The notes under the pieces were generated by a model. That model saw only the letters and a list, made by a program, of their open reading frames with translations, made no database searches and was not told the DNA's origin. Below, in pieces: positions 4,132 to 50,862 of a stretch of DNA of 50,862 nt (the first letter of the stretch is position 1; the number at the start of each line of letters is the position of its first letter). The DNA is from Candidatus Goldiibacteriota bacterium. GTDB taxonomy: Bacteria; Oederibacteriota; PGYV01. The translations under genes were made by a program, and so were the position numbers. The stretch lies in NCBI GenBank assembly GCA_016937715.1, contig JAFGWA010000014.1, positions 1-50,862 of the forward strand, in the 5' to 3' direction.

Positions 4132-4140
4132 GAAAATAGT

Positions 4141-4312
4141 ACGAAGAGCGGAGGGACGGAGGGACGGAGGGACGGAAGGAGGGAAGGAGGGAAGGAGGGA
4201 AGGAGGGAAGGAGGGACGGAGGGACGGACGGACGGACGGACGGAGGGAGGGACAGACAGACAGAAGGTTTTTTATACCGACCATCCGTACATCTGTGCAT
4301 CCGTCCCTCTAT
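4141..4312. repeat. Purine-rich short tandem repeats (GGACGGA / GGAAGGA units) with a partly complementary right arm
   Basis: From 4149 to 4262 the sequence is almost only G and A with scattered C, built from GGGACGGA, then GGGAAGGA, then GGACGGAC and GACAGACA units. Several G3 runs with 5-base spacers meet the usual G-quadruplex pattern on the + strand. The segment 4278-4312 (CCATCCGT, CATCCGTCCCTC) is the complement of the same unit type, giving a potential long hairpin. It fills the space between the divergent serS and hemolysin III genes. The frames open through it on both strands are repeat artefacts. Confidence 0.85.
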
Positions 4313-6400: not shown

Positions 6401-7252
6401 ATGAAAACATATCCCGAATGCCTGCCGTGCCTTTTAAAGCAGGCAATACAGGCGGCGCGCCTTGTCGGAGCTGATGAAAAGAACATTATGAGGGTCGCGG
6501 CCAAAGTTGAAGAATTTCTTGAAACCGTGGATATTGATAAAAATCCTCCAAGTATCAGCCGTAATATGCACAGGCTTATAAGGGCGGAATTGAAAGATTC
6601 TGACCCGTATCTGGCGATAAAAGAGAAGTATAACCGTATTGCTATGGAAATGTATGAGAGTGTGAAGGTAAAAGTTAAAGGGTCCAATGACCCGCTTCTG
6701 GCGGCTGTAAGGGCGGCAATAGCCGGAAATGTCATAGATTTTGGAGTACAGCTTGAGTTTGACCTTGAAGCTGATTTGAATGACATAATGCGGAAAGACT
6801 TTGCCGCGTTTGATTATGAAAGTTTTAAAGAGGCATTGTCGGCGAATAGAGAGGTTTTGTATCTTGGTGATAACACGGGAGAAACCGTATTTGACAGGAT
6901 ACTGATAGAAGAGATAAAACGCATATACGGTACAAAGATTACTTATGCTGTGAAAGAAAGCCCCATCTTAAACGATGCGCTTCATGAAGACGCGGTTTTC
7001 GCGGGAATTGATAAAATTGCGGATGTAATTTCCTCCGGCGCTGATTCGCCCGGCATTGTCCTTGAATACGCGTCCGAAGATTTTAAAAAACGTTTTTATT
7101 CCGCGGGAATGATAATAAGCAAAGGGCAGGGTAATTTTGAATCGCTGTATGGGGAACCTGTACCGGCATTTTTTCTTTTGAAATTAAAGTGTGAAGTGAT
7201 AGCAAAACATATAGGTTTACCGCTGGGCGGGATTGTACTTAAGAAGGGATGA
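6401..7252 (+). CDS. DUF89 / ARMT1-like metal-dependent phosphatase
   Basis: The protein starts MKTYPECLPCLLKQAIQAARL, the CxxC-containing opening of prokaryotic DUF89 proteins. It has the core LYLGDNTGETVFDRILIEEI, with the metal-binding Asp and Asn, and later AVKESPILNDAL and MIISKGQGNFESL, all diagnostic of the family. Characterised members are metal-dependent phosphatases acting on damaged or surplus sugar phosphates and nucleotides. The CxxC subfamily is thought to work in nucleotide or cofactor clean-up. Length (283) is normal. It follows the radical SAM gene by 31 bases, and an inverted repeat array lies directly after the stop. Confidence 0.9.
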   Translation: MKTYPECLPCLLKQAIQAARLVGADEKNIMRVAAKVEEFLETVDIDKNPPSISRNMHRLIRAELKDSDPYLAIKEKYNRIAMEMYESVKVKVKGSNDPLLAAVRAAIAGNVIDFGVQLEFDLEADLNDIMRKDFAAFDYESFKEALSANREVLYLGDNTGETVFDRILIEEIKRIYGTKITYAVKESPILNDALHEDAVFAGIDKIADVISSGADSPGIVLEYASEDFKKRFYSAGMIISKGQGNFESLYGEPVPAFFLLKLKCEVIAKHIGLPLGGIVLKKG

Positions 7253-7376
7253 GGGACAGAGGGACGGAAGGTCGGAGGGACAGAAGGTTTAAACCGAACA
7301 TCCGTGTATTTGTCTCAGCGTCTTTTGTGTTTTAGCCGACCCTCCGACCCTCTGTATATCCGTCCCTCGTGTTTTA
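7253..7376. repeat. Inverted array of GGACGGA-type short repeats
   Basis: The left half (7250-7290) reads GAGGGACAGAGGGACGGAAGG and on. The right half (7341-7370) reads CCGACCCTCCGACCCTCTG then CCGTCCCTC, its near reverse complement. The pair can fold into a hairpin with about a 50-base loop. The units are the same family as at 4141 and around 46730 and 47150. Confidence 0.8.
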
Positions 7377-7388
7377 GATTTTTAGCTA

Positions 7389-8485: not shown

Positions 8486-9235
8486 ATGCGCAGGGTAATA
8501 ATTCTTTTTTCCCTCATAGCGGCAGCTTTTACGGCTGTTTACGCGTCTAATTTTGACTTCCTTAAGGAATTTTTAGAGGAAGGCGACACCCATGTGATAT
8601 ATGTCAATAAACCGGAGAAAAAGCTTTATCTGCTTTCTTCCGCGCTTGAAGTGATGCTTGTTTATGATATAGCGTCCGGTTCGGGCGGCGGCGACAAAGT
8701 ATATCAGAAAGACATGTGCACTCCGGCGGGCGAGTACAGAATAACAGAAATATACACGTTAATGGAACCATGGCAGCTTGTGCTTGCGGAAGAACGGTTA
8801 AAAGACGCAGTGATGCGCAACGAAGATACAGGTGAAATTAAGCAAAAGGTAAAGCAGCTGCGGGATAATTTTAATCAGGGCAGAAATAACCTGACTTCTT
8901 TAAATAAAACATATTACAGGGCAAAAGACGGATATACACGGTATGGGACAACACAGGACCTTGGCATTAATTCTTACGGCCCGGTTTTTATGAGGCTTGA
9001 TTTTCCCAACGCGAAAGATTATAAAAAGTACAGAAAGGCCGTCCGTGAAGGGCGCGTGCCGAAAAACGAAGACGGGACATACGCGGAAATTGGCGGTGGT
9101 ATTGCGATACACGGAACAAATGACCCGGTATCCATAGGTCATGACGCTTCTCAGGGCTGCGTGCGGATGCGTAATTCAGATGTTATAGAGTTGTCAATGT
9201 ATGTGAAAGAAGGGATGAGGGTTGTTATTAGATAG
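8486..9235 (+). CDS. Secreted L,D-transpeptidase (YkuD domain)
   Basis: A signal peptide ([20 protein letters not shown]) is followed by a YkuD domain starting [17 protein letters not shown]. The active site is seen as IAIHGTND (H209) and SQGCVRM (C225), the His and Cys of L,D-transpeptidases that form 3-3 peptidoglycan cross-links or attach proteins to the wall. The 249-residue protein has about 80 residues between the first strand and the active site that include a charged helix. The ATG at 8486 lies just after the deaminase stop, which suggests translational coupling; an in-frame TTG three codons earlier overlaps the upstream gene. Confidence 0.92.
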
Positions 9236-9290
9236 GAAGCTTGGATGCTTGGATGCTTGGATGCTTGGATGCTTGGATGCTTGGAAAAAC
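9236..9290. repeat. Tandem GCTTGGAT octamer repeat
   Basis: About five uninterrupted copies of the 8-base unit GCTTGGAT follow the transpeptidase stop. The same unit occurs at 23210-23345 and 46684-46720. Confidence 0.9.
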
Positions 9291-9297
9291 GGAAGGT

Positions 9298-9524
9298 CAG
9301 ACGGTTTGGTAGGCGCACCCTTTTAGGGTGCGGTTGGAGCGAGCTTGCGAGCGGAAATCCCCCCGCTGAAGCGAGTTTACGAGCGTAAGCAGGCGGGGAC
9401 TGGTTTTAATAAGAACTAATTAAGCATAAAGCAGATAAGCAGAAGCGAAAAGGCAGCAGAAAGACACTTGGCAGCACGGATGCACGGAAGGTTTGGTAGA
9501 CGCGGGTCTTTAGCCCGCGGCAGT
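9298..9524. repeat. Two related GGTTTGGTAG hairpin repeats and a GC-rich inverted repeat
   Basis: GGTTTGGTAGGCGCACCC-TTTTA-GGGTGCG (from 9305) and GGTTTGGTAGACGCGGGT-CTTTA-GCCCGC (from 9490) share the same leader and a hairpin in the same place, but with different stem bases. Between them, CCCCGCT and AGCGGGG-like arms (9360-9400) enclose CGAG-rich repeats. The 356-base gap has no convincing gene. Confidence 0.65.
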
Positions 9525-18582: not shown

Positions 18583-18945
18583 ATGCCAAAAGTTACAATA
18601 TCATTAAAAAAGGGAAAGACAGCGGCAGAGAAGAAAATAATATTCGGTGCGGTTCATAAAGCGCTGGTGGACGCTTTTAAAATACCGCAGACAGACCGCA
18701 CGCTTTTCATGAATGAGTATGAACCGGAAAACATGGATGGGAAAGACAGTTTTACACTTGTAGAAGTGTCTGCGTTTAAAGGCAGGACACAGGAGATGAA
18801 AAAGCTGTTATACAGGCTGATTGTTGAAAATCTGAAAAATGACGCCGGGATAGACCCTCAGGCGGTTATGATAATAATTTATGACGTGCCAAAAGAAGAC
18901 TGGGGAATCCGCGGCGGACAGATGGCATCGGAGATATTCAAGTAA
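18583..18945 (+). CDS. Tautomerase family protein
   Basis: The 120-residue protein begins Met-Pro-Lys. After Met removal the N-terminal Pro would be the general base of the 4-oxalocrotonate tautomerase superfamily. KVTISLKKGKTAAEKKIIFGAVHKALVDAF, then LVEVSAFKGRTQEMKKLLYRLI and IIYDVPKEDWGIRGG, show two beta-alpha-beta units. This is a long tautomerase of the kind seen in many bacteria; the substrate is unknown. GGAGG places the start at 18583, and the frame upstream of it (from 18526) overlaps the promoter. A repeat array begins right after the stop. Confidence 0.88.
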   Translation: MPKVTISLKKGKTAAEKKIIFGAVHKALVDAFKIPQTDRTLFMNEYEPENMDGKDSFTLVEVSAFKGRTQEMKKLLYRLIVENLKNDAGIDPQAVMIIIYDVPKEDWGIRGGQMASEIFK

Positions 18946-19128
18946 CAAGTGGCAAGTGACAGGTGACAAGTGACAAGTGACAAGTGACAAGTGGCAAGTG
19001 GCAAGTGACAGGTGACAAGTGACAAGTGACAAGTGACAAGTGACAAGTTGTAACCTGTAAGTTGTGACCTGTAACCTGTTACCTGTAACTTGTAACCTGT
19101 AACTTGTAACCTGTCAGTTGTGACCTGT
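18946..19128. repeat. Heptad tandem array (CAAGTGA, then GTAACCT) as an inverted pair
   Basis: About 15 copies of CAAGTGA/CAGGTGA (18946-19047) are followed by about 10 units of GTAACCT/GTAACTT (19049-19128). The second half is close to the reverse complement of the first (CAAGTTA units) with one G-A mismatch per heptad, so the region could fold into a long imperfect hairpin. The 354-base gap before nrdJ holds this array, the candidate regulator box and the promoter. Confidence 0.9.
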
Positions 19129-19153
19129 AGATTGTGGTGTATACACTCTTCAA

Positions 19154-21579: not shown

Positions 21580-21855
21580 ATGAAACATTCAGAGTATTTT
21601 GAAGGAAAAGTTCAGAGTTTAAGCTTAAACGGAAAATTTGGCAATGCCACAGTCGGCGTGATAGAGCCGGGTCAGTATACTTTTGGAACTGCCACACAGG
21701 AAACAATGACAGTGGTGGAAGGGCAGCTGTCAGCCAGGCTTCCCGGGCAGGAATGGCAAGTGTATAAAAAAGGCGAAAGTTTTATTGTGGAGCCAAAAGT
21801 GTCTTTTGACTGCAAATGTGAAGAGCCCGCGGCGTATATCTGTTATTATAAATAA
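21580..21855 (+). CDS. ppnP: Pyrimidine/purine nucleoside phosphorylase (PpnP, DUF1255)
   Basis: The 91-residue single-domain cupin starts MKHSEYFEGKVQSLSLNG, with GVIEPGQYTFGTATQETMTVVEGQLSARLPG and GESFIVEPKVSFDCKC, the signature of the YaiE/DUF1255 family. PpnP splits many nucleosides with phosphate into base and ribose-1-phosphate. It sits 18 bases after nrdJ with a GGAGG site and is likely cotranscribed, joining nucleotide salvage to deoxynucleotide synthesis. Confidence 0.93.
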   Translation: MKHSEYFEGKVQSLSLNGKFGNATVGVIEPGQYTFGTATQETMTVVEGQLSARLPGQEWQVYKKGESFIVEPKVSFDCKCEEPAAYICYYK

Positions 21856-21938
21856 TTACAGACTTGTTCTGAATAAATATTTTGATGTAAAATCTTATCT
21901 GTACGCGTAATGTATTTATATATGATAATTGTAATTTT

Positions 21939-22142
21939 CCGGGGTTTGGGCATATTTTTTCAGTGCGCGCCGCAAATTGGTATTCTTGTATCCAAACAAA
22001 CTTGAAATCAACAGGTATGTTAATTCATTGGCAGCCGGGAGCCTGCGGTATATACTTGTTTGCCGGCGCGGCATTACATTCGGATTGCCGGACACGCAGC
22101 CGGTTTGCGCGGCGCTTCTGAAAAAACATACCCAAACCACGG
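21939..22142 (-). ncRNA. Structured repeat element, copy A (candidate RNA or MITE)
   Basis: A 204-base element whose ends pair: 21939-21963 with 22118-22142, 22 of 25 bases paired. Two of three mismatches are A-C on the plus strand, hence G-U in minus-strand RNA. Inside is a 62-base core (21972-22033, GCAAATTGGTATTCTTG on) that differs from copy B at only one base. Smaller hairpins follow, such as CCGGC/GCCGG near 22064-22091. A frame from 21977 reads through but is broken in copy C, so it is not a conserved gene. The strand is inferred from the G-U pattern. Confidence 0.6.
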
Positions 22143-22245
22143 ATATATTTGATTTAATTAATAATTCTGATTTATTGCTTAGTTTTCTTGAGTATCAAAA
22201 AAAATGACAATTCCAAAAAGAATGATTTTAGCCGGGAATGTTTTA

Positions 22246-22254: not shown

Positions 22255-22280
22255 CGTTGATAAATACAGGGAGGTGGGTT

Positions 22281-22751
22281 GTGGAAAATACAAAAAACGG
22301 GGAGCTTCACTTGAAAGCAAATGAAAAAAGGGAATATCCAAGGCAGTCTATGGCAGTATCCGTAAGATATAAACTTTTAACGCCTGAAGAGGCGGAAAAA
22401 GCAATGGCACGCCATTTTGACCCTGATAAAATGATGCAGGATTACAGCCAGGGTGAATCATCCGATGTTTCCAAGAACGGCCTTTCCATGTATGTGAATG
22501 AAGAAATACGGTTAAAGAGCCTGATGGCGGTTACCATGTATCTGTCTGTGCCGGGAATATCGTGCAACTGTAAGGCGCTGGCAGAAGTGGTAAGAAGGGA
22601 ATCCAATACCGAAGGCGGTTTTTACGCTTATAAAGTGGGGCTGCGGTTTGTAAAAATAATTCACCACAACCTTAAAAATTATACATATCTGAATTTAAAT
22701 GACCTTTTAAATATTAAAGAGCAGGGCTTCGAGGGGCAGGCAGGCAGATGA
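22281..22751 (+). CDS. PilZ domain protein (first of a tandem pair)
   Basis: The 156-residue protein has KREYPR (RxxxR) near residue 17 and DVSKNGLSMYV near residue 70, the two motifs of PilZ domains that bind cyclic di-GMP. It then has a beta-barrel ending KVGLRFVKI. Between the two motifs lies an insert of about 30 residues (EEAEKAMARHFDPDKMMQDY) shared with the next gene. The GTG at 22281 has GGGAGG six bases upstream. It overlaps its paralogue by four bases (ATGA). Its output is unknown, since no effector domain is attached. Confidence 0.82.
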   Translation: MENTKNGELHLKANEKREYPRQSMAVSVRYKLLTPEEAEKAMARHFDPDKMMQDYSQGESSDVSKNGLSMYVNEEIRLKSLMAVTMYLSVPGISCNCKALAEVVRRESNTEGGFYAYKVGLRFVKIIHHNLKNYTYLNLNDLLNIKEQGFEGQAGR

Positions 22752-23203
22752 CCGAAAAGCAAGAGAAAGAAGGCGACCTGCTTTTCCCGCAGGAAAGGCG
22801 CGAATACCCCAGGGTGGCGCTGAATGTAAAGGTGCGTTACAGGGTGCTGGGCGACAGCAAGGAAGATACTGAACTTGTTAAAAAGTTTGACCCTGAAGAG
22901 ATTTTCAGGGTTTTTAAAGAAAATGAAACGGTAAATATTTCCACATCAGGCCTTCTGATGTATTCAGACGAAAGTATCCCCGAAAAAGCCATAGCGGCTG
23001 TAAATTTTTATATGCCGCTGCCCGGGCTGTCGTGCACATGCGCGGCGCTTGCGGAAACCATAAGGTGTATAAAGACAGTAAGCGGCAGGTACCTTGTAGC
23101 GCTGAAGTTTTTGAAAATAATCCACCATGACACGACAAAATATAAATACCTTACCCTTACAGAAATCCTTGCCATAAAAGGGGCGGAGATAAAGCTGGAT
23201 TGA
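22748..23203 (+). CDS. PilZ domain protein (second of a tandem pair)
   Basis: This paralogue of the preceding gene has RREYPR near residue 18 and NISTSGLLMYS near residue 63. It has the same inserted segment (KKFDPEEIFRVFKENE) and the same C-terminal IIHHDTTKYKYLTLTEIL. The shared tail IIHH(N/D)..K.YTYL outside the PilZ core suggests a dedicated subfamily. Likely a cyclic di-GMP sensor; whether the two form a heterodimer is unknown. Length is 151 residues and the ATG overlaps the stop of the first. Confidence 0.82.
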   Translation: MTEKQEKEGDLLFPQERREYPRVALNVKVRYRVLGDSKEDTELVKKFDPEEIFRVFKENETVNISTSGLLMYSDESIPEKAIAAVNFYMPLPGLSCTCAALAETIRCIKTVSGRYLVALKFLKIIHHDTTKYKYLTLTEILAIKGAEIKLD

Positions 23204-23345
23204 TAGACGCGTGGATGCTTAGAGGCTTGGATGCTTAGCAAAAGCGGATATGCGAGCGTTAGTATCCAATCCGGCACGAATCTATAAGCGGAAGCATAGG
23301 TGGCGGTTCGTAGGTTTCCAAGCATCCAATCATCCAAGCCTCTAA
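23204..23345. repeat. Inverted GGATGCTT-type repeat
   Basis: GGATGCTTAGAGGCTTGGATGC (23213-23234) is matched by the reverse-complement array CCAAGCATCCAATCATCCAAGCCTC (23318-23342). The two arms enclose a GC-rich spacer with GCGAGCGT. It can form a long hairpin upstream of the nucleotidyltransferase promoter. Confidence 0.8.
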
Positions 23346-36955: not shown

Positions 36956-38940
<1,985 letters not shown>

Positions 38941-39199
38941 GCGGAACGCTTGCCGAAGCAAAGCCGAAAGGCTGCAGCTGAGGCTTAGCGGCGCTTACTC
39001 AGGTGGAATGCCGAAGGCTGACGCCTGAGTTAATGAAATAGATTTTATTTATCCCCGGAGCCATTATAATTAACTTATGGCGAAGCGGGATGGTTTAAAA
39101 GATTACATATTGCTGACCGCGGCCTTGAAAAAGGCCGCGGCATGCAATGTGCAGTCGTTCTATTTTGTGTTCTTTGATAAATATTTAAGTGTAATAATT
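38941..39199. other. Hairpin-rich spacer between groEL and repeat copy C
   Basis: ACTCAGG (38997-39003) pairs with CCTGAGT (39024-39030) around GCCGAAGGC-type repeats. CCGCGGCCTT-GAAA-AAGGCCGCGG (39117-39140) is a perfect 10-base stem with a GAAA tetraloop. A frame from 39077 (62 codons) covers the second hairpin and repeat copy C and has no ribosome site; I do not call it a gene. Confidence 0.6.
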
Positions 39200-39401
39200 A
39201 CACGCGCCGGATATATTTTTTTATGCCTCCTGCAAATTGGTATGCTTGCAGTCATGAAAGCTTGAAAATTTCAGTAAGTTTATTCGTTGGCATACGCTTA
39301 CTCCCGACAGGTACGGATTTGCCGGCGCTGCATTAAATCCGGATTTCGGGGGATACAGGGAACTTGGGCAGGAGTCATAAAAAAATACACCCGGCGCGTG
39401 T
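39200..39401 (-). ncRNA. Structured repeat element, copy C (candidate RNA or MITE)
   Basis: A 202-base element. 39200-39233 pairs with 39368-39401 over 34 bases with three mismatches, two of which are A-C on the plus strand and so G-U in minus-strand RNA. The outer stem starts CACGCGCCGG, unlike CAGGGG or CCGGGG in copies B and A, yet it is fully complementary. The core at 39232-39292 begins GCAAATTGGTATGCTTG and ends TTCGTTGGCA, clearly related to copies A and B but diverged and with stops in all frames that are open there. dnaJ starts 115 bases to the right. Confidence 0.6.
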
Positions 39402-39515
39402 TTAAGTTTTATTTTAATGTATACTTTTTGTATTACGGCATTTACACCACGGTTTTATCAGGGCGAAGTTTGTACTTTAAGACAGGCGCAAATTCAGAAA
39501 GAAAAGGTGTCTTAT

Positions 39516-40649
39516 ATGCAGTTAAAAGATTATTATAAAGTGCTTGGGTTAACCGACAAAGCTGGCGATGATGATATAAAAAAAGCATTCCGCCAGCTTG
39601 CAAAAAAATATCATCCTGACGCGCATCCCGGCGACAAAGCCGCGGAAGAGCGCTTTAAAGAGATAAGTGAAGCGTATGAAGTGCTTTCCAACACTGAAAA
39701 AAAAGCTCAGTATGAAAAATTAAAACAGGCGCAGGCGGGCGGCTATGATTTTTCCAATATGGGACGCGGCGGACAGAATGGTAATTATCAGGGGAATGTG
39801 GATTTTTCATCAATTTTTGGCGATATGTTCGGGCAGAACCGCTCCGGCGGATTTTCTGATATTTTTGATATGTTCTTTGAAAACGGGCAGCGAGGCAGAG
39901 GGCAAAGCCGCGGCAGGTCAGCCGCCCCGCAAAAAGGCGATGATGTAAACATAAGAATAAAAATTCCTTTTGACCTGTCTTTAAAAGGCGGCGAAACTAT
40001 TGTAAAAGTACCCCGTGCTTCGCAGTGCACATTGTGCGGCGGCACCGGTGCTGCGCCCGGCACAGGCGTGCAGCAGTGCCCCACATGCAATGGCAGCGGA
40101 AGCATACATTTTTCACAGGGCGGTTTTATGATAAATAAACCCTGCCCCAATTGTGACGGAAGAGGCACCGTGATTAAAACCCCATGCATAAAATGCGCCG
40201 GTACGGGCAGTGAAAAAGAGATAGAAAAAATAAGGATAAAAATACCGCAGGGCGTGACTGACGGGACAAAGTTAAAAATAAGCGGGCACGGCGATTATGG
40301 CAAAGGCGGCCGCGGTGATTTGTATGTGATTTTTGGCGTTGAAGAAAGCGCGCAGTTTGAACGCAGGGGCGACGACCTTTATTACGGCGCGTCAATAAAT
40401 CTTGCGCAGGCGGCTTTGGGTTCAGAAATTGAAATACCTCTTACGGACGGCGCGGTAAAGGTAAAAATTCCCGCAGGCACTCAGCCGGGGTCGGCGCAAA
40501 AAATAAAAGGAAAGGGCGCCAAGAATATAAAGACGGGTAAAAACGGCGACCTTATTATTGTTATAAACGTGGAAATTCCCTTGAAGTTAAATGATAAAGA
40601 AAAAAAGCTTATACAGGAACTTGCAAAATTAAAAGATATGAAGTACTGA
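39516..40649 (+). CDS. dnaJ: Chaperone protein DnaJ
   Basis: Residues 1-70 form the J domain with KKYHPDAHPG, whose HPD stimulates DnaK ATPase. A Gly-rich segment follows. Four CxxCxGxG zinc motifs (CTLCGGTG, CPTCNGSG, CPNCDGRG, CIKCAGTG) lie near residues 170-235, followed by the C-terminal substrate domain. The 377-residue length is normal. The ATG at 39516 has AAGGTG six bases upstream; the frame is open back to 39417, but that stretch is spacer. It works with DnaK, which is about 3 kb upstream. Confidence 0.96.
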   Translation: MQLKDYYKVLGLTDKAGDDDIKKAFRQLAKKYHPDAHPGDKAAEERFKEISEAYEVLSNTEKKAQYEKLKQAQAGGYDFSNMGRGGQNGNYQGNVDFSSIFGDMFGQNRSGGFSDIFDMFFENGQRGRGQSRGRSAAPQKGDDVNIRIKIPFDLSLKGGETIVKVPRASQCTLCGGTGAAPGTGVQQCPTCNGSGSIHFSQGGFMINKPCPNCDGRGTVIKTPCIKCAGTGSEKEIEKIRIKIPQGVTDGTKLKISGHGDYGKGGRGDLYVIFGVEESAQFERRGDDLYYGASINLAQAALGSEIEIPLTDGAVKVKIPAGTQPGSAQKIKGKGAKNIKTGKNGDLIIVINVEIPLKLNDKEKKLIQELAKLKDMKY

Positions 40650-45306: not shown

Positions 45307-46683
45307 ATGAAAAAACTTATCGTCTTGTTGTTGGTTTTTATGTTTCCTTTTACCCTTCCGGCAGTGCCCATGATACCTTCAAGTTTCAGTGAAATCGCGC
45401 AGATTGCGGAGCCTTTTGTGGTAAATATTTCAACCGTTAAAATTGAAAAAAGGCAGCGCGACCCTTATTATGACAGGTTTTTTAATGATCCCTTTATGCA
45501 GGAATTCTTCGGAGTTCCTCCGCAGAGCGGGCGGGACAATTCCATAAAAAGAAGAAGTTTAGGAAGCGGTTTTATAGTATCAGATGACGGATATATCCTT
45601 ACCAATAATCACGTGGTGGGAGGAGCCGATGAAATAACCGTAAAACTTTTCAATGAAAAAGAGTATAAGGCAAAGGTTATAGGCGTTGATAAAGAAACCG
45701 ACCTTGCAGTTATAAAAATAGACGCAAAAGGTTTAAAGGCCGCGGTGCTTGCCGATTCGGACGCGATAAAAGTGGGCGACTGGGTGGTGGCGATTGGAAG
45801 TCCGTTTGGACTTGAAAAAACAGTTACGCAGGGGATAATAAGCGCCAAGGGCAGGGTAATAGGCGCCGGCGCGTATGATGATTTTCTGCAGACAGATGCC
45901 GCTATTAATCCGGGAAATTCCGGCGGCCCGCTTGTTGATCTGGAAGGGAAAGTTGTGGGGATAAATACCGCGATTTCTTCCGCTTCCGGCGGATATGACG
46001 GTGTGGGTTTCGCGATACCGTCAAACATGGCAAGAAAAATTTATGATGATATCACGCACGGCGGAAAAGTCGTAAGGGGATGGCTGGGCGTGGGCATACA
46101 GGAACTTACCCCCGAACTGGCAAAACATTTCAAGGTAAAAGAAGGCGTGCTTATTTCGCAGGTATTCAAAGAAAGCCCGGCGGAAAAAGGCGGCATCAAA
46201 AACGGCGACGTAATCACGCGGTTTGACGGAAAAAAAGTTACAAAATACCGCGAGCTTCAGTCGCTTGTGGCAAGCACGCCTGTGGGCAAGACTGTTATTG
46301 TAAAGGTGTCAAGGAAAGGCGCGGAAAAAGAACTTAAAGTGAAAATATTTGACAGAAGTAAAGCTGAAACCGCGCAGGTAAGCGAAAAAGCGCAGTCCGG
46401 TTCGCTTGGGATGCTTGTGGTTGACATGAATGAAGAATATGCAAGGCAGTATGGTACGGATTCCACAGCCGGAGTTGTGGTGGTAAATGTAGAACCCGGT
46501 TCGGTGGCGGATGAGGCCGGCGTAATGAAAGGTGATATTATTCACGAAATAAATACCGTAAGGATAAAAAATTCAGATGTGTTTAATTCGGTCACGGGAA
46601 AGCTTGGCAGGGGCAGTGAAGTGGTAATGTTAATTGAACGCAGAAACGCGATGATATACCTGGCGTTTACGATAAGGCAGTGA
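45307..46683 (+). CDS. degP: DegP/HtrA-like periplasmic serine protease
   Basis: A signal peptide (MKKLIVLLLVFMFPFTLPA) precedes a trypsin-like domain with H102 (TNNHVVGG), D132 (ETDLAVIKI) and S205 (NPGNSGGPL). Two PDZ domains follow, starting near residues 255 (VRGWLGVGIQELT) and 365 (GSLGMLVVDMNEE). DegP cleaves and chaperones misfolded envelope proteins. At 458 residues and with two PDZ domains it is a full DegP/DegQ-type protein. AGGAGG precedes the ATG. It may share stress functions with the Sec and Bat systems. A repeat-rich spacer follows. Confidence 0.95.
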   Translation: MKKLIVLLLVFMFPFTLPAVPMIPSSFSEIAQIAEPFVVNISTVKIEKRQRDPYYDRFFNDPFMQEFFGVPPQSGRDNSIKRRSLGSGFIVSDDGYILTNNHVVGGADEITVKLFNEKEYKAKVIGVDKETDLAVIKIDAKGLKAAVLADSDAIKVGDWVVAIGSPFGLEKTVTQGIISAKGRVIGAGAYDDFLQTDAAINPGNSGGPLVDLEGKVVGINTAISSASGGYDGVGFAIPSNMARKIYDDITHGGKVVRGWLGVGIQELTPELAKHFKVKEGVLISQVFKESPAEKGGIKNGDVITRFDGKKVTKYRELQSLVASTPVGKTVIVKVSRKGAEKELKVKIFDRSKAETAQVSEKAQSGSLGMLVVDMNEEYARQYGTDSTAGVVVVNVEPGSVADEAGVMKGDIIHEINTVRIKNSDVFNSVTGKLGRGSEVVMLIERRNAMIYLAFTIRQ

Positions 46684-46810
46684 AGCCGGATGCTTGGATG
46701 CTTGGAAGGTTAGATGCTTGGTGAAAAACTGAGGGACGGATGCACGGATGCACCGAGGGACGGAAAGAACTGAGGATTGGATGATCGGATGCACGGAGGG
46801 ACGGAAGAAA
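46684..46810. repeat. GCTTGGAT and GGACGGA repeat array, left arm of a nested inverted repeat
   Basis: GCTTGGATGCTTGGAAG (from 46689) is followed by GGACGGATGCACGGATGCACC units. GGATGCACCGAGGGACGGAA at 46746-46765 is repeated as an exact reverse complement at 47149-47168, on the other side of repeat element copy B. Confidence 0.85.
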
Positions 46811-46882
46811 AACCAGCGGCTCGGCAGTACAACGGCATGATAGCCGGGTTTTGACTTGGAAGGAGTTATTCCTCCGTTTTTA

Positions 46883-47085
46883 CAGGGGTTGGGTGTGTTT
46901 TTTCAGCACGCGCCGCAAATTGGTATTCTTGTATTCAAACAAACTTGAAATCAACAGGTATGTTAATTCATTGGCAATCGCGGGTTTGCGGCACATACAT
47001 ATTTGCCGGCGTTGCATTAAAACGCCCCTGACGCATACATACCATTCTTTCGCGGCACGTACTGAAAAAACACACCCAACCCCTG
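46883..47085 (-). ncRNA. Structured repeat element, copy B (candidate RNA or MITE)
   Basis: 46883-46906 pairs with 47062-47085 over 24 bases without a mismatch. The core 46915-46976 differs from copy A at one base. The element is flanked on both sides by TTTTA (46878-46882 and 47086-47090), as a 5-base target duplication would be. The frame open across it (46851-47123) is not a gene by comparison with copy C. The element is itself enclosed by a perfect 20-base inverted repeat. Confidence 0.65.
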
Positions 47086-47145
47086 TTTTAAACCCGAGGC
47101 AACTCACCCGAATCTTGTTTTGATGTTTGGTGGTATATTTATTTT

Positions 47146-47235
47146 AACTTCCGTCCCTCGGTGCATCCGACCATCCGACCATCTGTTTTTACCGTCCCTA
47201 CGTGCATCCGACCTTCTATCCCTCCGGTTTTTTTA
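47146..47235. repeat. Right arm of the nested inverted repeat
   Basis: Reverse-complement units of the GGACGGA family (CCGTCCCTCGGTGCATCC and following CGACCATC copies) end just before the next promoter. The 46684-47347 gap has no convincing gene. Confidence 0.85.
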
Positions 47236-47347: not shown

Positions 47348-50300
47348 ATGAAAGGGAAAAAAGCGGTAAGAAAGACAGCCGCAATAAGAAAAATTGCCTT
47401 CATTGCAGTTTTTTTGGCAATGGTAATAATTCTTATTAATACCCCTGCTTATTCTGCATGCACCCCCGCTTCTGCCCAGCTTTGCGCGGCTGTTGATGAC
47501 ATAGCACAGGTGTATTTAAACGGCACATTGATAACCAATACGGATTTATGGGATTTTCCCGGCGGAGAAGTGGATTCAGCATTTCCTTATTCCGATATAA
47601 GCGGAAGCCCCGGGCCTCCTGCTCCTCTTTGTATCAGTTTAGATGCCGCGCAGCTTGCTTTGCTGCAGCCCACAGGAAATGTGATTTCTGTAAGGACGCT
47701 TAACACCGGCGCGTATGAACTTTGGACATCTTACAGCCTTGATGTTGTGTGTGCTGAAGGCGGCCATTCTTATGTCAGCAGCGCGGATATTGCAAATATT
47801 GATTTGTATTACGATGATTCCTGTCCTGCAGGCGATATTCCGCAGTATGCGGGGCTTAATTGGTATGACCCGCTGTACGATCAGGATAATTCCGGGTTAT
47901 CGTGGAATCTGCCGCAGTATGAAGAGGGGCTGAAATACGGCAAAAGAATTTATGATCCTGCCACAAACAGTCTTTTGCCTGCGCTAAGTTATTCCACTGA
48001 TTCTGAAACCACTGACGGTGACTGCAAAGAAATATTCACAAGGCAGGGATTTGACCTTACTATAGACCCCACTCCCGAACCGCCGCACTTTACATTAAGT
48101 AAGACCGCAAACCCGGCCACAAATGTGGGGCTTACAACCCCTTATGAAGTTACGTTCACGCTGCACATCTGCAATACGGGCGGAGGAACTTCAGGGAATC
48201 CTGTAACAATTGCGGATGACTGGTCAAGCGCGGTTGATGACTGGCAGTATTTCTGGCCAAATGATTACACTGATACCATGCTTGGTTTTATTGATTATAG
48301 CGGCAGCGGACAGACAGGTTCTATTACTTTTGCAAACGGATTTCCTGCTGATACATGTTATGATTACAATTACGCTGTAAAACTTTACAGCGGCTCTCCC
48401 ACTTTCTGCGATGTCTGGGATAATACGGCAAATTTAACTTACCTTGCGTCGCCGACGGTTGTGGCAACTGCGGTGGTTGAAAATTACTGCCCGGATCCGC
48501 CGGTATTTACAATGGTAAAATCGGCAAGTAAAACAACTGTAAGCGGAAATAACGATTACCTTACTTACACAATACACCTGTGCAATACGGGCGGCGCCGC
48601 GTGGCAGGGCGTAATGACAATTTATGACGATATGACATCAGCGCCGGGGGACTGGCAGTTTGACGGCCCGTATAATGTGGACAACCCCGCGGTTGGAATA
48701 GATTATTATGATACAACCGGCGGCAATGATTACAGGACTTTTAACATCCATTTTCAGCAGCCCGGTTTTACAGGGTGCGTGGATTTAGAGTACCGTGTGC
48801 ATTCGGCTAACAATTACGGCTGCGGGCCCTGGCATAATGACGCGACCCTTAACAGCTATATGGGTTCGCCCACAATTGTTTCAACCGTGGTTATGAATAA
48901 TTACTGCTCGCCGACATTTACACCTTCGGTGACAAGGACGATAACGCCTACAATGACACCTACAATGCCGCCGAATTTCACAATAGTAAAATCGGCAAGT
49001 AAGACCACAGGTATCGTGGCGGGTGATGAAATAACATTTAATATTCAGATATGTAATACAGGAGGCGCTGTGTCTTCTGGGAGTCTGGTTATAAGAGATG
49101 ACTGGTCATCTTCCACCGACAGCTGGAGTTATCTTGATCCTTACTATATTGGTAATCCTGTGTCCGGAATAAGCAGTGTTTCCCACAGTGGAAGCGGTAA
49201 AGTGCGTGATTACACTGTCAGTTTTACATCGCCCGGTTTTACCGGGTGTTATACATTGCCTATAAGGGTTCGTATGGACACGCGCGTGGGGTGCGACTGG
49301 TATAATCTTGCATCGCTGGCCTATCAGACAACGCCTACAATAGTATCAACCGTTGATATGCATAATTTATGCGCGTCGCCCACGCCCACTGCTACAAGGA
49401 CTGTGACAAGGACAGTAACAAGAACCGCGACACGTACAGCCACCTTAACAGTAACGCGCACAAGGACGCTTACAAGCACGCCGACCAGTACTTTAACAGC
49501 GACGCCGTCTGTCACCTTTACGCGGACTGCCACGCCGACTTCTACAAGAACAATCACTTATACAATAACAAATACAGCAACGCCCACATCGACGCTTACT
49601 TCAACGCGGACAATTACTTTTACCGCCACGCGGACGATAACGTTTACGGTGACAAGAACGGCAACTCCCACAATGACAGTAACATCCACGCCAACGGTCA
49701 CGTTCACCGCCACACGGACTATAACGTTTACGGTGACAAGAACGTCAACGCCCACCATGACTGTTACGGCAACACCGACAGTTACGTTTACCGCCACGCG
49801 GACAATAACATTTACGGCAACCCCAACGGTAACTGTGACCGCGACATCAACGCTTACGGCAACGCAGACAATAACATTTACGGCAACAAGAACGGCAACT
49901 CCCACAATGACTGTTACGGCAACGCCTACGGTTACGTTTACCGCCACGCGGACGATAACATTTACGGCAACGCCAACGGTAACTGTGACCGCGACATCAA
50001 CGCTTACGGCAACGCAGACAATAACATTTACGGCAACAAGAACGGCAACGCCGACAATGACGGTAACGGCAACACCTACGGTTACGTTTACCGCCACACG
50101 GACGATAACATTTACGGCAACGCCCACTGTGACTGTGACCGCGACGTCAACGCTTACGGCAACGCAGACAATTACTTTTACGGTAACGGCAACTGCAACG
50201 CCCACAATGACAGTGACATCCACGCCTACGGTCACGTTTACGGCGACCGGTACGATAACATTTACGGCAACGCCCACTGTGACTGTGACCGCGACGTCCA

Positions 50301-50862
50301 CACTCACCGCCACGCAGACTATAACATTTACGGTCACAGCAACGGCAACGCCTACTATGACTGTTACAGCAACGCCAACGGTCACGTTTACCGCGACAGG
50401 GACTATAACATTTACGGCAACGCCGACTCAGACATTAACAGCAACGCCTACAAATTCGGTGTCGCAGACAGATACTCCGACAATTACATTTACAGCAACG
50501 CCTACGTCTACAAATACAGTCTTAGATACGCCGACATCCACAATAACTTTTACAGCCACACCCACGCAGACTTTAACGGCTACTCCTACCAATACTGTAT
50601 CACAGACATACACGCCGACAGTGACATTAACGGCAACACCGACGGCTACAGTAACCGCGTCGCCTACGGTTACGCATACGGCGACAGGCACAATAACATT
50701 TACATCAACTCCTACACAGACTCTAACGGCCACGCCGTCAAATTCCGTATCACAGACAGACACGCCGACAGTGACATTAACGGCAACACCGACGGCTACT
50801 GTAACCGCGTCGCCTACGGTTACGCATACGGCAACGGGGACAATAACATTTACATCAACACC
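47348..50862 (+). CDS. Giant secreted protein with three Cys-containing repeat domains and Thr-Pro stalk (partial)
   Basis: The frame stays open from ATG 47348 (AGGGGG five bases before) to the window edge, at least 1171 codons. A signal sequence ends near residue 38 (IILINTPAYSA). Residues 40-245 are an N-terminal globular part with several Cys. Three related domains of about 140 residues start at 247, 386 and 543. Each has a KSASKTT or KTANPAT opening, an ICNTGG or LCNTGG turn, a DDWSS or DDMTS segment and a closing NYC or NLC, like DUF11-type beta-sandwiches. From about residue 678 the sequence alternates Thr with V/F/A/P/R (TPTVTFTATRTITFTATPT). This is likely an exported, probably O-glycosylated surface fibre. 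The C-terminal anchor or sorting domain is beyond the window. Confidence 0.88.
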   Translation, partial: MKGKKAVRKTAAIRKIAFIAVFLAMVIILINTPAYSACTPASAQLCAAVDDIAQVYLNGTLITNTDLWDFPGGEVDSAFPYSDISGSPGPPAPLCISLDAAQLALLQPTGNVISVRTLNTGAYELWTSYSLDVVCAEGGHSYVSSADIANIDLYYDDSCPAGDIPQYAGLNWYDPLYDQDNSGLSWNLPQYEEGLKYGKRIYDPATNSLLPALSYSTDSETTDGDCKEIFTRQGFDLTIDPTPEPPHFTLSKTANPATNVGLTTPYEVTFTLHICNTGGGTSGNPVTIADDWSSAVDDWQYFWPNDYTDTMLGFIDYSGSGQTGSITFANGFPADTCYDYNYAVKLYSGSPTFCDVWDNTANLTYLASPTVVATAVVENYCPDPPVFTMVKSASKTTVSGNNDYLTYTIHLCNTGGAAWQGVMTIYDDMTSAPGDWQFDGPYNVDNPAVGIDYYDTTGGNDYRTFNIHFQQPGFTGCVDLEYRVHSANNYGCGPWHNDATLNSYMGSPTIVSTVVMNNYCSPTFTPSVTRTITPTMTPTMPPNFTIVKSASKTTGIVAGDEITFNIQICNTGGAVSSGSLVIRDDWSSSTDSWSYLDPYYIGNPVSGISSVSHSGSGKVRDYTVSFTSPGFTGCYTLPIRVRMDTRVGCDWYNLASLAYQTTPTIVSTVDMHNLCASPTPTATRTVTRTVTRTATRTATLTVTRTRTLTSTPTSTLTATPSVTFTRTATPTSTRTITYTITNTATPTSTLTSTRTITFTATRTITFTVTRTATPTMTVTSTPTVTFTATRTITFTVTRTSTPTMTVTATPTVTFTATRTITFTATPTVTVTATSTLTATQTITFTATRTATPTMTVTATPTVTFTATRTITFTATPTVTVTATSTLTATQTITFTATRTATPTMTVTATPTVTFTATRTITFTATPTVTVTATSTLTATQTITFTVTATATPTMTVTSTPTVTFTATGTITFTATPTVTVTATSTLTATQTITFTVTATATPTMTVTATPTVTFTATGTITFTATPTQTLTATPTNSVSQTDTPTITFTATPTSTNTVLDTPTSTITFTATPTQTLTATPTNTVSQTYTPTVTLTATPTATVTASPTVTHTATGTITFTSTPTQTLTATPSNSVSQTDTPTVTLTATPTATVTASPTVTHTATGTITFTST
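49781..50862 (+). repeat. 150-base tandem repeat coding a 50-residue Thr-rich unit
   Basis: GTTACGTTTACCGCC-type segments recur at 49781, 49931, 50081, 50231 and 50381. A related unit (CACGCCGACAGTGACATTAA) recurs at 50611 and 50761, always 150 bases apart. The repeat is in phase with the reading frame (50 residues). Third-base changes dominate between copies, so the protein sequence is kept while the DNA drifts. Confidence 0.9.

Follow-up and report, generated by a model that had tools for sequence, protein, structure and literature searches.

The element of about 200 bases that a first-pass annotation found in three copies in a 50,862-nucleotide stretch of a Candidatus Goldiibacteriota genome (the window; contig JAFGWA010000014.1) is, with a probability that we put at roughly 60%, a member of a new family of extragenic repeats that are miniature, non-coding and confined to one genus, that form a long hairpin, and that function as a folded single strand. 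Its copy number, lack of a coding signal, covariation, wobble bias, orientation lock, genus restriction and insertion polymorphism were observed directly. We propose that the machinery which copies, processes or uses the element would recognise the minus strand in its folded, single-stranded form, that the element would spread as a non-autonomous unit into the intergenic space 3' of genes, and that the remaining copies would stay under selection for the fold.

The three copies, named W1, W2 and W3, were seen in the sequence at the places first reported, with the core, the T-run and the paired ends described for them. Arms are given in minus-strand 5' to 3' order.

21937-22144, minus strand: W1, standalone, flanked by the genes for Ppnp (21580-21855) and PilZ (22257-22751)
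22107-22142, minus strand: W1 outer stem, 5' arm, limits approximate, from folding
21939-21974, minus strand: W1 outer stem, 3' arm, limits approximate, from folding
39198-39403, minus strand: W2, standalone, between GroEL (37297-38940) and DnaJ (39417-40649)
39368-39401, minus strand: W2 outer stem, 5' arm, from inverted-repeat search and folding
39200-39233, minus strand: W2 outer stem, 3' arm, from inverted-repeat search and folding
46880-47088, minus strand: W3, embedded in a mosaic, lying downstream of a gene for an HtrA-like protease (45307-46683)
47049-47086, minus strand: W3 outer stem, 5' arm, from inverted-repeat search and folding
46882-46919, minus strand: W3 outer stem, 3' arm, from inverted-repeat search and folding
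46724-46812, no strand assigned: 8-bp periodic array left of W3, of the GGAGGGAC/GGATGCAC type, inverted relative to 47143-47231
47143-47231, no strand assigned: 8-bp periodic array right of W3, a neighbouring module

Each copy contains the core GCAAATTGGTAT once, and the window has no further exact occurrence of it; the arms are 91% matched in W2 and 92% in W3 by inverted-repeat search. The minus-strand RNA fold was compared with dinucleotide shuffles and gave minimum free energy z-scores of -6.2 (W1), -8.1 (W2) and -11.9 (W3), with no shuffle equal to the real sequence in any of the three. The two 8-bp arrays are modules that adjoin W3 and lie outside the minimal unit of the element. The copies in the window are of two kinds: W1 and W2 occupy gene junctions at which a sister species also has a copy, and the site of W3 is element-free in both sisters.

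The count of three holds for the window, but whole-genome search and a covariance model revealed dozens of copies in the genome. We used the window's own genome (G000) and those of two congeneric sister species (G001 and G002); the core and paired ends recur by the dozen in G000 and are also present in G001 and G002. One search of the own genome returned 42 full or partial copies. A covariance model was built from 27 copies and a second one from divergent copies; after filtering, full-length copies numbered 38 in G000, 23 in G001 and 24 in G002, duplicates, truncated copies and insert-bearing copies being left out of these counts. With both models, no family match survived inspection in 40+ other genomes of the phylum. 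Weak model matches in other genera (L088-L090) were rejected, as the sequence there looks coding, and no significant model match accompanied either the one exact copy of the core seen in an Ignavibacteria record (L058) or a match on a viral contig (L151). Pairwise identity within the family averages 77% and falls to a minimum of 51%, indicating an old family within the genus and not a recent burst.

The unit spans about 205 bases, ending in ACAGGG...CCCTGT; its ends pair over about 36 bp, and the loop domain that they enclose, about 130 nt long, contains conserved blocks. It is multicopy, lies within 70-300 bp, has terminal inverted repeats and has no coding capacity. Of 86 copies, 36 have one plus-strand frame without stops; coding on either strand was nevertheless rejected, because codon periodicity is absent (p = 0.53) and the frames of standalone copies are closed by stops. 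The earlier remark that no named family carries this core agrees with Rfam, which gave no match in the window at the gathering threshold and, in a lenient search (E up to 5) of three loci, nothing over the element. HEARO, OMEGA and retron types, as far as Rfam holds them, likewise have a closed terminal stem and a conserved loop domain, but none of these families matched. A retron or other retroelement would call for a reverse transcriptase, and PF00078 was found in none of the three genomes.

Pairing of the outer stem is kept by compensatory change. In an alignment of 14 representative copies with 29 outer-stem pairs, tested against 500 shuffles, double-sided change was seen at 15 of the 29 pairs against 5.8±1.7 in shuffles (0/500 as high), double-sided cells numbered 33 against 7.4±2.3, and 94.3% of stem cells were paired against 84.6±0.9. 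When the partner was shifted by one, two or three columns, the double-sided cells fell from 33 to 3-8. Compensation also extends to orthologs at the RNR-PilZ and GroEL-DnaJ junctions, where W1 and W2 differ from their G001 counterparts by six and five double changes, respectively, all still paired (1.8 and 2.0 expected from one-sided rates). The claim of covarying ends therefore stands for the stem that had been proposed, at 15 of 29 pairs, but not for a blind search: when all column pairs of 85 copies were tested in an R-scape-like manner, under a null model in which the changes of every column are laid out along the tree, no pair reached E < 1. Stem pairs 6-204, 12-198 and 28-182 ranked first, second and fifth in this test, with all-pairs E of at least 7; if only the 35 pairs of the proposed stem are counted, the two best come to about 0.01 each by arithmetic from the same test, so that significance is confined to tests on the proposed stem. 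The all-pairs test has low power because the mosaic-embedded copies, which are abundant, have nearly invariant stems. Among orthologs of this embedded kind, most show slower change in the stem than in the interior (for example, 0.01-0.07 vs 0.11-0.18 per site). None of the interior helices covaries convincingly, and covariation thus supports the outer stem only.

The wobbles in this stem are one-sided. A G-U bias on the minus strand, first noticed in three copies, is real and much stronger across the family: read on the minus strand, the outer stems of 87 mosaic-embedded copies hold 335 G-U but only 20 A-C juxtapositions. Counted on a tree, WC-to-GU changes outnumber WC-to-AC changes by 74 to 23 (binomial p about 1e-7), reversions amount to 51 GU-to-WC and 0 AC-to-WC, and there are 42 WC-to-WC double changes. 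Among all listed ortholog pairs, single differences comprise 66 WC-GU vs 12 WC-AC, and about 23 to 7 (hand count) where the two orthologs are nearly each other's best relatives; in standalone orthologs except W2, the bias is weak or absent. Base composition does not account for it, because the interior, with 48.6% A+C on the minus strand, has no keto skew. One-sided wobbles together with a covarying stem imply that selection, or else a strand-specific process, keeps the minus-strand fold, and they speak for a single-stranded molecule of minus sequence, be it RNA or DNA, rather than for a palindrome in duplex form or a hairpin in plus-strand mRNA. The proposal that selection acts on minus-strand structure is upheld by the compensatory changes and the one-sided wobbles, with a strand-specific process as an alternative cause.

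The orientation of the copies is nearly absolute. With gene orientation taken from simple ORF calls, the folded strand at codirectional gene pairs is antisense to its neighbours by 63:1 (63/64); 19 copies lie between convergent genes and five between divergent genes, and copies are mostly situated 3' of genes. In the fetched G001 contigs, all 22 of 22 copies have the folded strand on the strand of negative GC skew, opposite about 90% of genes, and W1, W2 and W3 likewise have it on the negative-skew strand. Other modules are less strictly oriented, at 62:11 for a GTAG-tagged REP and 66:18 for the 8-bp repeat; the element core, found by pattern, stands at 19:1. The copy at G002:C44:17324 follows the local genes against the skew, the copies on G000:C86 follow genes where the skew is near zero, and copies flanked by divergent genes are oriented like the majority on their contig. 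The directions of genes and of replication correlate too closely in these genomes to be separated as causes of the orientation. Replication asymmetry is very strong in G001 contigs C1-C5, C7 and C15 and in the window: GC skew is about ±0.11 to 0.16, and within each contig one strand has about 90% of the genes. At codirectional gene pairs, L025:1501-1708 alone is inverted, and the same locus in G001 (G001:C1:60835-60947) holds a partial copy in the usual orientation; the inversion may represent a flip of the interior between inverted arms.

Most copies are embedded in intergenic mosaics with a recurrent module order, which on the minus strand reads from a TTCGAA-rich stretch ending in ATTAGATTAACAC through the element to AAGGCCGAGGGACGGATGCAC-type 8-bp repeats and often on to a GTAG-tagged hairpin. 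About ten divergent copies, including W1 and W2, are mostly standalone. W1 has its ortholog in G001 at the same RNR/Ppnp-PilZ junction (L097:3001-3208) and W2 at the same GroEL-DnaJ junction (L101:1001-1207), and the proteins flanking these orthologs are 89-99.6% identical. In G002, the element is absent from the W1 site, where a short remnant similar to the terminal part of one arm is left, suggesting a deletion; the W2 site there coincides with a contig end. At the W3 site, both G001 and G002 have other repeat modules and no element. Further sites are filled in one species and element-free in another, with exact junctions blurred by the mosaics. At some orthologous positions, the G000 copy and the G002 copy each have a closer relative elsewhere, so that re-insertion at hot spots or conversion blurs the signal of in-situ evolution. 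Some G001 and G002 copies have lost much of the interior, yet both arms of the outer stem survive. At several G002 loci (L117-L126), a repeat of about 71 bp, GGTTGGAGCGAGCCTGCGAAGCGGAAATCCCCGGGCTTGCGCGAGTTTACGAGCGCAAGTGTTAGGGGAC, is nested inside element copies, sometimes twice.

The suggestion of a non-autonomous mobile element (MITE) is borne out in part, by filled and unfilled sites between sister species. TA adjoins one end of most copies, the other end is variable, and mosaic flanks prevent clean junctions; no clean target-site duplication was found at element copies. No autonomous relative with the same ends is present in G000-G002, where the arms occur only as parts of short copies, and the inspected Y1/RAYT genes are flanked by other repeats.

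In anatomy and distribution, the family fits a known kind of repeat represented by ERIC, NEMIS, RUP, YPAL and REP/REPIN, but it is set apart from that kind by a long stem that varies in sequence yet stays paired, by wobbles biased to one strand and by the orientation lock. Our comparisons with YPAL and with the bacterial MITEs rely on a portion of one account (PMC2229807). YPAL or RU-2 of Yersinia (about 168 bp) is, by description, also a long single-stem palindromic intergenic repeat of similar size, with filled and empty sites between sister species and a position close to upstream genes. It makes target-site duplications of 3-26 bp, whereas none was found for the element, and, unlike the element, it is not reported in that portion to have a one-strand wobble bias or a near-absolute antisense orientation. 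ERIC, NEMIS/Correia and RUP resemble the element in being non-autonomous, 100-200 bp long and often bounded by TA, with highly paired transcripts, but they form 7-24 contiguous pairs, fewer than the roughly 36 bp of the outer stem described here. The element further differs from them in arms that vary between copies while staying paired and in the lack of any visible target-site duplication. REPs, too, are extragenic palindromes that lie beyond the 3' ends of genes where ORFs are unidirectional or convergent (PMC3733652), and the frequency of G-T pairing in REP stems has been taken as support for their transcription (PMC3733652). REPINs, which are linked to RAYTs, show compensatory changes (PMC3116915), and the host genome of the element has RAYT-type Y1 genes. 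The element is, however, five to ten times larger than a REP, its ends are without the GTAG/CGTC tag of REP/REPIN, it does not flank the inspected Y1 genes, and these genomes also contain a distinct REP with a GTAG tag. An integron attC site was also considered, given arms resembling GTTRRRY/RYYYAAC and folding of the bottom strand; this was rejected on inspection of the sequence, as the motif order is reversed, W2 is without the motifs and copies lie among housekeeping genes.

As to the nature of the folded molecule, we have a weak preference for RNA of the antisense strand, at slightly better than even odds, over single-stranded DNA, at about one chance in three, leaving about one in ten for neither. 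The proposal of a structured RNA from the minus strand gains from compensatory pairing and the minus-strand constraint, but it is weakened by the lack of a promoter in standalone copies and by a strand that is antisense to neighbouring genes. In its full form, each copy would be a structured sRNA, a minus-strand RNA of about 205 nt with a terminal stem that acts antisense on a neighbour or in trans, W1 and W2 being old RNA genes and the rest amplified copies. Such a family would account for the one-strand G-U bias and the compensatory changes, for conserved loop blocks in a family with pairwise identities as low as 51%, and for the retention of W1 and W2 at orthologous junctions. No sigma-70-like promoter was found before the minus-strand 5' end in standalone copies, though; several copies keep the stem without most of the interior, and interior helices are without convincing covariation. 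The promoter score exceeded the cut in 16 of 85 mosaic copies, where the flank is repetitive and AT-rich. On balance, we regard an sRNA family as rather unlikely, albeit the strongest of the rivals.

A slightly less probable alternative is a single-stranded DNA element, REPIN-like or IS200/IS605-like, in which an HUH (Y1) transposase binds the hairpin of one strand and insertion is coupled to replication and strand-specific. This would be in keeping with compensatory changes, which REPINs also show (PMC3116915), and with insertion polymorphism between species. Each of the three genomes has two RAYT-type Y1_Tnp genes and none a reverse transcriptase (PF00078 in 0/3), and the strand lock relative to GC skew is near-absolute. 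No element was found beside Y1 genes, however, at four Y1 loci scanned with the model and three searched for inverted repeats, the inspected genes being flanked by other repeats, and the ends of the element are a 36-bp stem in place of short subterminal hairpins. By strand logic, the lagging-strand template carries G-rich sequence. The constrained strand is C-rich and so is not the lagging-template sequence that IS608-type elements use; targeting of the lagging strand is described in PMC6006769.

It is tempting to speculate, as an equally doubtful extension of the RNA reading, that the family represents a new class of structured antisense-strand RNA, with about 40 members per genome beside gene 3' ends, which multiplied in a SINE-like manner in one genus without reverse transcriptase, and in which a few ancestral loci (GroEL-DnaJ, RNR-PilZ) had their stems rewritten by compensatory change while their neighbours hardly changed.

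Selection might also be dispensed with altogether. Quasipalindrome correction, in which template switching of a nascent strand matches the arms and G-T mismatches escape more often than A-C, yields compensatory double changes without function, agrees with the fast change of W1 and W2 that nevertheless stay paired, and, through a replication-linked strand lock, would have a strand-specific outcome. Templated correction on one nascent strand may apply to W1 and W2. For the family we judge it improbable, since the stem is slower than the interior in most mosaic-embedded orthologs, its sequence is conserved in most copies, and deletion derivatives retain both arms. Marginally more improbable is a hairpin of the 3'-UTR that acts in plus-strand mRNA, serving as terminator or stabiliser like REP/BIME: the position 3' of genes between unidirectional or convergent ORFs is that of REPs (PMC3733652), but plus-strand wobbles are A-C and not G-U by 335 to 20, and W1, W2 and W3 have no terminator-like site. 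Decayed ends or fragments of a coding transposon, as palindromic ends and dispersal might suggest, are very improbable given that the three genomes hold no longer version with the same ends, that codon periodicity is absent and that stops close the frames of standalone copies.

If the one-strand constraint is true, the family provides more than 80 natural sequence replicates, some of them orthologous, with which to ask whether a hairpin repeat is kept up as RNA, as single-stranded DNA or as a mere palindrome, a question that stands equally for REP, ERIC and YPAL. The per-strand ratio of G-U to A-C wobbles is a cheap test, applicable to every dispersed hairpin-repeat family.

Several other repeats were observed in these genomes. 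The Y1/RAYT-type genes at L148, L147 and L150 are each flanked by inverted repeats of their own: a 45-bp perfect palindrome on both sides of the gene at L148:1325-1369 and 2400-2444, arms at L147:1262-1287 and 2455-2480 that contain GGGACGGA, a word shared with the 8-bp arrays, and inverted repeats at L150:1349-1380 and 2457-2488. The GTAG-tagged REP-like hairpin GGTAGACGCGGGTCTTCAGCCCGCGGCAG, with its variants, occurs in 62 gene-sense vs 11 antisense cases in 1.33 Mb (fetched G000, G001 and G002 contigs), with examples in the flanks of L003, L018 and L022. Intergenic arrays with an 8-bp period lie in the window at 4134-4283, 7222-7383, 9218-9313, 23188-23251, 46679-46812 and 47143-47231; they are of the GGAGGGAC, GGATGCTT and CCGTCCCT types, are abundant in the genome and stand in recurrent order with other repeats. 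Long internal repeats with a unit of about 150 nt occupy 49382-50825, over a minus-strand ORF (49558-50385) without a Pfam match, and an array at 18925-19142 has a 7/14-bp period in which CAAGTGACAAGTGA changes to AACTTGTAACCTGT.
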